From contig JAGAXG010000045.1 in NCBI GenBank assembly GCA_017941035.1, positions 1 through 64,000 on the forward strand: a DNA stretch of 64,000 nt, read 5' to 3'. The notes beneath the pieces are model-generated. The model was not told the DNA's origin, did no database searches, and saw nothing but the letters and a program-made list of their open reading frames with translations. The stretch is from a bacterium (GTDB taxonomy: Bacteria > Cyanobacteriota > Vampirovibrionia > Gastranaerophilales > Gastranaerophilaceae). The position numbers and the translations under genes are program-made. This document shows positions 39,586 to 40,700 of this stretch, in pieces (position 1 is the first letter of the stretch; every line of letters begins with the position of its first letter).

Positions 39586-40239
39586 ATGAAAGAATTTATA
39601 CCTTTTAAAGTAAATACAGGGTTTGTGAATATGAAAACAGATTCTGATTTACTGGAAAATTCAATAAATAAGCAACTTAATTATCCTGTATTCAGATTAT
39701 ACGGCTGGGAACCTGCATGCATATCTTTAGGGCGAAATCAGAATGATGAATTCCTTGATAAAGATTTTTTACAACAGCAACATATTGATATCGTGAAACG
39801 TCTTACCGGCGGCAGGGCACTTTTGCATGCAGACGAAATCACTTACAGTTATATTTGCCCTATAAATTATTTAAAAAACGGTGAGCATATAATTTCATCA
39901 TACAAAGAAATTTGCCAAATATTAATAGATAAATTCAAAATTCTAGGTATAGAACTTGATTTTGGAACTAAAAAACAAATAAAAACAGGATTTGAATACT
40001 GCATGCTTGTATCAACAGGAGCAGATTTGTGCTATAAGGGCAAAAAACTTATAGGTTCAGCACAATACAGAAAACATGGATATATTTTACAGCATGGTTC
40101 AATTTTGTACAATTATGATGCTAAATTATTAGAGAAAATATTTAAAGAGCCTATAAATACTTCAGAAATAACAACCATAAAAGAAATAAATCCACATATT
40201 ACAAAAGAAGATATTATAAAAATATTTAGTGAGCCTTGA
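39586..40239 (+). CDS. Lipoate/octanoate protein transferase (LipM-like)
   Basis: 217 aa of the biotin/lipoate A/B transferase fold. RLTGGRALLHADEITYS is the family substrate-binding motif, and GKKLIGSAQYRKHGYILQHGS is close to LipM octanoyltransferases. The Cys in FEYCMLVST aligns by spacing with the LipM nucleophile, which supports octanoyl transfer from ACP rather than ATP-dependent ligation. It begins 2 bases after the secreted pair and is probably co-transcribed with it. The tandem repeats follow 38 bases later. Confidence 0.85.
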   Translation: MKEFIPFKVNTGFVNMKTDSDLLENSINKQLNYPVFRLYGWEPACISLGRNQNDEFLDKDFLQQQHIDIVKRLTGGRALLHADEITYSYICPINYLKNGEHIISSYKEICQILIDKFKILGIELDFGTKKQIKTGFEYCMLVSTGADLCYKGKKLIGSAQYRKHGYILQHGSILYNYDAKLLEKIFKEPINTSEITTIKEINPHITKEDIIKIFSEP

Positions 40240-40277
40240 TTTTTAATAATATTAATGATACATTAATGAATGTCAAA

Positions 40278-40630
40278 GTCGTCACGGTGAGTGTGGGACT
40301 CTGCCGACGAGGAAAATTGAGTATCTTCCGAGGAGAGGTATGTAGCGCAAGCTAACGCAAGCCGGATGATTAAAAACTAAATAATTAAAAGTCGTCACGG
40401 TGAGTGTGGCACTCTGCCGACGAGGAAGATTGAGTATCTTCCGAGGAGAGGTAGGTAGCGCAAGCTAATGCTAGCCGGATGATTAAAAACTAAATAAACT
40501 TAAAAGTCGTCACGGTGAGTGTGGCACTCTGCCGACGAGGAAGATTAAGTATCTTCCGAGGAGAGGTAGGTAGCGCAAGCTAACGCTAGCCGGATGATTA
40601 AAAACTAAATAAACTTAAAAGTCGTCACGG
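40278..40630 (+). repeat. Three tandem 113-115 bp GC-rich structured repeats plus a 10-base partial copy at a tRNA
   Basis: Copies start at 40278, 40391 and 40506, and a fourth stub (GTCGTCACGG, 40621-40630) runs into the CAU tRNA, sharing its first two bases. Each copy has a 94-base core (to 40371, 40484, 40599) and an A-rich linker. Each core can fold as RNA: outer stem GTCGTC/GATGAT (with G-U pairs), hairpin 1 GAGTG/CACTC, hairpin 2 GGAAGAT/ATCTTCC, and hairpin 3 TAGC-GCAA-GCTA with a GNRA loop. Copies 2 and 3 differ at only two core positions; copy 1 has changes that weaken all three hairpins. GC content is far above the surroundings. I do not know the family; no ORF explains it. Confidence 0.9.
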
Positions 40631-40700
40631 GCCTGTGGCGCAGCGGTAGCGCAGAGGACTCATAATCCTTTGGTCGTGGGTTCGAATCCCTCCGGGCCCA
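40629..40700 (+). tRNA. tRNA with CAU anticodon (elongator Met or Ile2)
   Basis: Acceptor GGGCCTG pairs with CGGGCCC, the D stem is GCGC/GCGC, the anticodon stem GAGGA/TCCTT encloses loop CTCATAA (anticodon CAT), and the T loop is TTCGAAT. The T stem has one U-U mismatch. CCA is not encoded. Sequence alone does not separate elongator tRNA-Met from the lysidine-modified tRNA-Ile2. The 5' end coincides with the truncated fourth repeat copy. Confidence 0.92.

Follow-up and report, generated by a model that had tools for sequence, protein, structure and literature searches.

Integrases classically target tRNA genes. The 178-bp repeats beside E. coli tyrT (rtT RNA) are tandem units next to a tRNA gene, each with a terminal piece of the tRNA, and the palindromic elements of Rickettsia are repeats found in RNA genes as well as in reading frames. 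The TnpA-REP proteins use single-stranded palindromes carrying a 5' tag as substrates, with cleavage at CT or CA dinucleotides (PMC8266576). Here we describe an array of short structured repeats joined to a tRNA-Met gene in a 64,000-nt stretch of a Gastranaerophilaceae genome, which we call the window.

Tandem units upstream of tRNA-Met

The array lies on the forward strand. It consists of three units of 113, 115 and 115 bp (40278..40390, 40391..40505 and 40506..40620, defined by repeat comparison), followed by a 10-base partial copy, GTCGTCACGG (40621..40630). The partial copy comprises the leader plus the first 2 nt of the tRNA, its last two G being the start of an intact tRNA-Met(CAU) (40629..40700, found by ARAGORN), and it recurs at the start of every unit. 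The tandem triplication and the overlap with the tRNA start had both been read correctly in a first-pass annotation made from the sequence alone. The same is true of the GC-rich units in AT-rich DNA, as the 94-nt parts of the units are 53 to 54% GC, the spacers 5 to 10%, and the window 32%. Unit 1 is the most diverged copy (92% identity to unit 2, versus 98% for unit 3), and the three copies differ pairwise by 5, 5 and 2 bases. The MFE folds of the three 94-mers agree on a closed, multibranched structure, as that annotation had proposed, and the energies of -30.0 (z -1.5), -35.5 (z -2.8) and -38.0 (z -3.9) kcal/mol for copies 1 to 3 bear out its remark that copy 1 is weakened. Among the Rfam covariance models, tRNA models alone reached the gathering score, and the array had no match to any family at E values up to 10, in line with the statement that no known family fits.

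A conserved box, TTGATTTTT...TTAATGATA (40236..40268, forward strand), lies 5' of the whole array and is likely the promoter of the tRNA-Met operon. It scored below the threshold of a promoter scan. The same box precedes other Met arrays and the array-free Met loci L204 and L208. The three units of the window, placed between this likely promoter and tRNA-Met, are probably transcribed with the tRNA. Within the genus, the number of units at the Met locus varies among species, and array-free Met loci occur, at least one of which (L208) has a leader with a similar AT-rich box.

Each unit combines a tRNA end with a 42-nt insert

The first-pass annotation missed that GTGGC and GGTAGCGC of the unit correspond to the D-arm of the neighboring tRNA and flank a 42-nt insert. 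In related genomes, the unit at the Met locus reads leader, GGGCCTGTGGC, ACTCTGCC...GAGAGG and GGTAGCGC, and the tRNA itself reads GGGCCTGTGGC-GCAGC-GGTAGCGC. Comparison of these junctions therefore shows that the unit duplicates the leader and the 5' end of the tRNA and that its D-arm is interrupted by 42 nt. In the window, the 5' part of the units has drifted (GGTGAGTGTGGC), and GTGGC and GGTAGCGC are retained. The junction table places the intact tRNA in the site class GTGGC/GCAGC/GGTAGCGC, in which GCAGC is replaced in the units by the 42-nt core and an added TA. Core hairpin 1 (40297..40338; 61.4 bits with the covariance model) has an A-C mispair in its stem. Core hairpin 2 (40410..40451; 70.7 bits) has the form CACTCTGCCGA-hairpin-GAGAGG and, after the added TA, is followed by the D-loop/D-stem segment GGTAGCGC of the tRNA-Met copy (40454..40461). 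Core hairpin 3 (40525..40566; 71.9 bits) is followed by the same segment at 40569..40576. All of these features are on the forward strand.

At other loci (Pro, Leu, Val, Lys, Ile, Ala and Thr), the tRNA part of the unit is likewise that of the adjacent tRNA. Tandem units are mostly about 84 to 250 bp long, a box like TTGAAAACTGAATA lies 5' of each tRNA copy, and arm remnants are followed by near-perfect inverted copies, e.g., GGTAGC-GCA-GCTACC. Across other genomes and loci, only the 42-nt insert is conserved, a second point that had been missed; repeat boundaries were fixed for this core alone. Of the 94-nt RNA unit proposed earlier, the structured nature stands (10 of 10 variable-hairpin pairs covary), but the conserved part is the 42-nt core only. 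In some Met units, the fold is closed by lineage-specific sequences complementary to the tRNA 5' end, and closure is common among Met units from the window's genus. As a general rule, a conserved RNA fold of the whole unit was ruled out, since closure beats 95% of shuffles in 17% of 218 units, where 5% is expected; the closed fold is therefore not a conserved trait.

The core is a covarying hairpin

The core consensus is A-CUCU-GCCGA-(variable hairpin)-G-AGAG-G, with a loop that is mostly URANW or CNGUG. A C-G pair with a GA/GA step stands at the base of the variable stem in about half of the distinct cores (84/167). The core ends, ACTCT and AGAGG, pair over 4 bp only. In a set of 27 diverse, equally long cores, each of the ten variable-stem pairs has two-sided changes (72 cells, versus 23 in shuffled and at most 19 in slid controls), the outer CUCU/AGAG and GCCGA being invariant in this set by construction, because the cores were chosen with that pattern. 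The compensatory changes that the first-pass annotation had suggested looking for are thus present. Nearly all stem changes are two-sided Watson-Crick swaps and one-sided changes are almost absent, a scarcity that fits DNA palindrome correction or stem replacement as well as selection. On the core strand, G-T mispairs outnumber A-C mispairs by 20:8 with end pairs excluded (one-sided p 0.018, related copies uncorrected); an earlier count, 34:33, was distorted by the loop-closing C-A. This mild G-T excess is also what RNA function predicts. Stems are near-identical inside an array and differ among the loci of one genome. Therefore, the arrays grew locally.

Distribution across genomes

A covariance model search found the core in 138 of the 146 genomes sampled from the family (38 of 41 genera) and in a single genome sampled from a second family of the order. 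It was absent from all other sampled families of the class or phylum, i.e., outside the order. A stricter pattern run over the GTDB genomes matched records labelled Gastranaerophilales, Melainabacteria, Cyanobacteria or unnamed bacteria, and two differently labelled records, probably misassignments. Contigs with canonical cores under other taxon labels are L090 (labelled Muribaculaceae) and L131 (labelled Acinetobacter RUG672), both probably mis-binned Gastranaerophilales DNA.

The window's own genome has 12 exact core matches at several separate contig places, versus 0 for the reversed pattern. Eight copy-rich genomes have 18 to 86 pattern hits each (control, 0); exact patterns give up to 61 copies in G090, and 86 in G140 when overlapping matches are counted twice. 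Copy numbers from the covariance model searches are lower bounds. Most of the genomes are metagenome assemblies, in which arrays break contigs, and 33 of 241 distinct cores lie at contig ends. A phage or plasmid origin of the core was rejected, because the pattern had no match in IMG/VR and blastn gave none in phage or plasmid collections. In the literature searched, with most subscription journals outside it, we found no description of such a repeat for Melainabacteria or Gastranaerophilales.

Genomic contexts of the core

A tRNA lies within 1 kb on the 3' side of 196 of the 241 distinct cores (179 on the same strand and 17 antisense), a share that is not an unbiased genome-wide figure, as sampling relied mainly on the canonical pattern. 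The tRNA genes are of many types. Most of the cores beside them are in the D-arm on the sense strand, others are antisense in the T-arm, and the intact gene is nearly always on the core's 3' side. In the antisense cases, the last 10 to 14 nt of the tRNA (Arg, Gln, Glu, Met, Phe or Thr) are followed by the core. Several antisense arrays repeat the tRNA terminator in each unit, and antisense cores were found beyond the terminators of tRNA-Glu, -Met, -Phe, -Thr and -Lys. The 3' end of tmRNA at L292 and 5S rRNA at L171 have the same antisense arrangement, both genes being identified by eye. Many copies in G090 and G140 are in dispersed repeats, and in G090 the core is in leaders of reading frames that are prepilin-like by eye. 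Copies do lie beside many tRNA types, as had been asked, but not always, since tmRNA, 5S, dispersed repeats and coding leaders are occupied too.

The dispersed repeats start with TTGTC(T/C)GAG and have one or two nested cores (L274 to L290 in G140, L254 to L272 in G090); their starts look related in the two genomes and their ends differ. At L269, L271 and L273 of G090, the core and a second hairpin are in a prepilin-like leader (...ENQRCAFTMAEILLSLTIIG), with several near-identical copies per genome, and the core is in frame where checked (L269 and L271). A solitary core in the window's own genome (L046, G000:C45:38147-38188) is part of a structured repeat, with TTCAGCGCAAGCGAGCAGAGTGCA before the core and no tRNA in the 3-kb locus around it. 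A similar repeat follows tRNA-Val at L045. Other hairpin inserts occupy the same tRNA position, namely AAGGACTCC...GGAGGG with a similar AATTAAGTATT-type loop (L054 and L079) and AGGAACC...GGAACC (L280); these are possibly sister core classes.

The core lies 5' of a GNA motif

We found the core directly 5' of a GNA motif, usually in place of 5 to 6 nt, in 27 of 27 tRNA/strand/position classes (154 cores with both junctions mapped on an intact tRNA), the classes being our own grouping of the junction table, in which the Thr antisense row has two parses, one of them fitting. The 5 to 6 nt that are replaced or adjacent to the core are GCAGC, GCAGT(T), GTAGC, GGAGC, GGAATC, GGATTC, GGAAT, GAAA or GCACC, always G-N-A. 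The GNA background in the same tRNAs is 13.7% at sense positions 5 to 28 and 11.3% at antisense positions 8 to 18. The naive probability of 10^-24 is a guide only, because tRNAs share D-arm sequence and the classes are not independent. tRNA-Pro has three GNA motifs (GTAGC, GCAGC and GTAGC), each of which is occupied by cores.

One dispersed family in G140 provides two empty/filled pairs, TACAC-GGAGT-GCGAG and TTACG-GAAGT-GACCCC. At the filled sites, GGAGT and GAAGT are replaced by ACTCT...GAGAGGTA, so that in both pairs 5 nt are replaced with no target duplication. From these pairs within one genome, movement of the core to new sites may be deduced. Among the genomes sampled, one per species, we found no clean target duplication and no close-strain pair with and without a tRNA insertion.

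RAYT genes and the core

RAYT/Y1 genes are present in 50 of the 146 genomes. Many of them are flanked not by the core but by the repeat GTAGGTTGGGC...GCCCAAC, which is of the type published for RAYTs (PMC2817692), and among the 44 entries examined just 5 distinct RAYT loci have a complete core no more than 500 bp away. No transposase or integrase was tied to the core in the genomes examined. RAYT was ruled out as the cognate enzyme by the RAYT elements' own GTAG repeats and their patchy occurrence. The window's own genome has two RAYT-like Y1 transposase genes (G000:C39:87028-87372 and G000:C7:27604-27975), one of them on the same contig and both outside the window.

At L310, a RAYT element with GTAGGTTGGGC-type repeats is inside a split core hairpin (...CAAG / element / CTTG...), and at L306 and L316 such an element abuts a broken core. 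As a lead only, these three loci suggest that cores attract RAYT elements or are handled by related enzymes. By analogy, TnpA-REP action would be a plausible model for the GCCGA-tagged hairpin.

Origin of the arrays

We consider it probable that the core is a selfish DNA palindrome, similar to REPs and MITEs without being a GTAG-REP, that is amplified locally by tandem duplication. The mobile part would be the 42-nt core, ACUCU-GCCGA-(stem-loop)-G-AGAG-G(TA). It is observed directly 5' of GTAGC, GCAGC, GGAGC, GGAATC and GGATTC, in arms of tRNA, tmRNA and 5S rRNA copies and in hairpins of larger dispersed repeats. We suggest that the core enters folded or single-stranded DNA via a strand-specific enzyme, possibly of the HUH/Y1 type. 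Insertions would survive only if they fall into a duplicated gene end or themselves duplicate it; either order is compatible with single genomes per species. The unit of core, arm remnant, leader and gene end would then grow into an array by unequal exchange or slippage. The order of gene end, core, arm remnant, leader and intact gene is constant in both orientations relative to transcription, which suggests a DNA process with a strand sense. Local amplification predicts the pattern of stems found within arrays and between loci.

A palindromic mobile element was the last alternative of the first-pass annotation, and the evidence is compatible with it. The tie to tRNA starts is borne out in many genomes, and the element did come with duplication at the tRNA start. 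Genome-wide scatter without conserved stems had been named as the mark of a plain REP or MITE; we found scatter in some genomes, but the stems are conserved. If the core is such a selfish element, the window units would not be a regulator of tRNA-Met. The core may have a secondary use in some tRNA leaders. A more specific scheme, which would make the core a new kind of minimal mobile DNA, is that a gene-less 42-nt hairpin enters the arms of stable-RNA genes at GNA motifs by a process in which the broken gene end is copied again, regenerating the host gene and leaving a chimeric unit that can be arrayed. It is tentative, and we regard it as possible rather than probable.

The core could instead belong to a structured leader RNA of tRNA operons, whose mimic of the tRNA 5' end on the nascent transcript tunes processing, antitermination or decay. 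In the mainly canonical-pattern sample, 178 of the 241 distinct cores are upstream of a tRNA on the same strand and within 400 nt, and this placement, the covarying hairpin, the TTGAAAACTGAATA-like box before each tRNA copy, the mild G-T excess, the closed Met units and the position of the window array behind a likely promoter all favor such an RNA. However, the same core is found in antisense arrays beyond terminators, in tmRNA and 5S copies, in dispersed repeats and in coding frames and leaders, the unit fold is not general, and array-free Met loci exist in the same genus. A leader RNA is therefore unlikely, and the same contexts speak against the small-RNA array, or processing or decoy RNA cotranscribed with the tRNAs, that had been offered earlier.

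Micro-islands formed by a tyrosine integrase in trans would explain the displaced tRNA end and the regenerated tRNA as attachment products, and the arrays as tandem integrations. This geometry, seen here on the 5' and 3' gene sides, is that of tDNA islands (PMC4383910), but the unit of about 110 bp is without an integrase, a separate matching attP would be needed for every tRNA and for each of the three tRNA-Pro positions, and replacement at the dispersed sites is simple and nonduplicating. We regard this origin as quite improbable. A purely mutational origin is equally improbable; here, template switching during replication at tRNA hairpins would repeatedly copy a resident hairpin together with the gene end, and no dedicated enzyme would be needed. 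It would account for the near-perfect inverted copies after arm remnants, for palindromic stems without intermediates and for replacement instead of clean insertion; yet the strict GNA rule and one conserved 42-nt core across an order exceed the expectation from microhomology.

For a noncoding repeat beside essential genes, a 42-nt palindrome that occupies a readable motif in many tRNA types, tmRNA and 5S copies and gives rise to chimeric arrays has an unusual lifestyle. Its presence in nearly every sampled genome of one gut bacterial family means that it influences tRNA loci, contig breaks and gene calls there. If an enzyme is found, the site rule would provide a ready substrate for testing single-strand transposition of REP-like repeats.

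Comparison with known systems

Like the REP/BIME sequences moved by RAYTs, the core is a short palindrome whose variable stem is preceded on the 5' side by a conserved unpaired tag, occurs in many copies and in clusters at intergenic and intragenic sites, and shares some genomes with RAYT genes. Unlike them, it has GCCGA inside a CUCU/AGAG clamp as its tag, not GTAG or CGTC, the RAYT genes here carry the GTAGGTTGGGC... repeat, and the core is in RNA-gene arms with partial gene copies. GTAG- or CGTC-tagged REPs are short multicopy palindromes, as is the core, with an unpaired end tag (PMC3733652) and a cognate RAYT flanked by the repeat; GTAG follows the core only where TAG comes after GAGAGG, and no such RAYT was found for the core. 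MITEs have terminal inverted repeats and target-site duplications, and the core has 4-bp end pairing and a 5-nt replacement. A regulatory RNA of tRNA leaders would be sense-upstream in all instances, and the core has antisense, tmRNA, 5S and dispersed ones.

The unit resembles tRNA/tmRNA genomic islands of the Islander type in its displaced gene fragment on one side, regenerated intact gene on the other, and tandem arrays. It differs in its small size, in its D-arm and antisense T-arm sites set by a GNA motif, and in having no internal integrase gene, for which its 84 to 250 bp leave no room. The tyrT repeats differ in carrying the 3' tRNA end and are not known to share a hairpin core, whereas here one core is common to many genes and an order. 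The Rickettsia palindromic elements are, as far as we know, unrelated in sequence, and a further difference is that here the RNA-gene copies are disrupted and an intact gene is kept.
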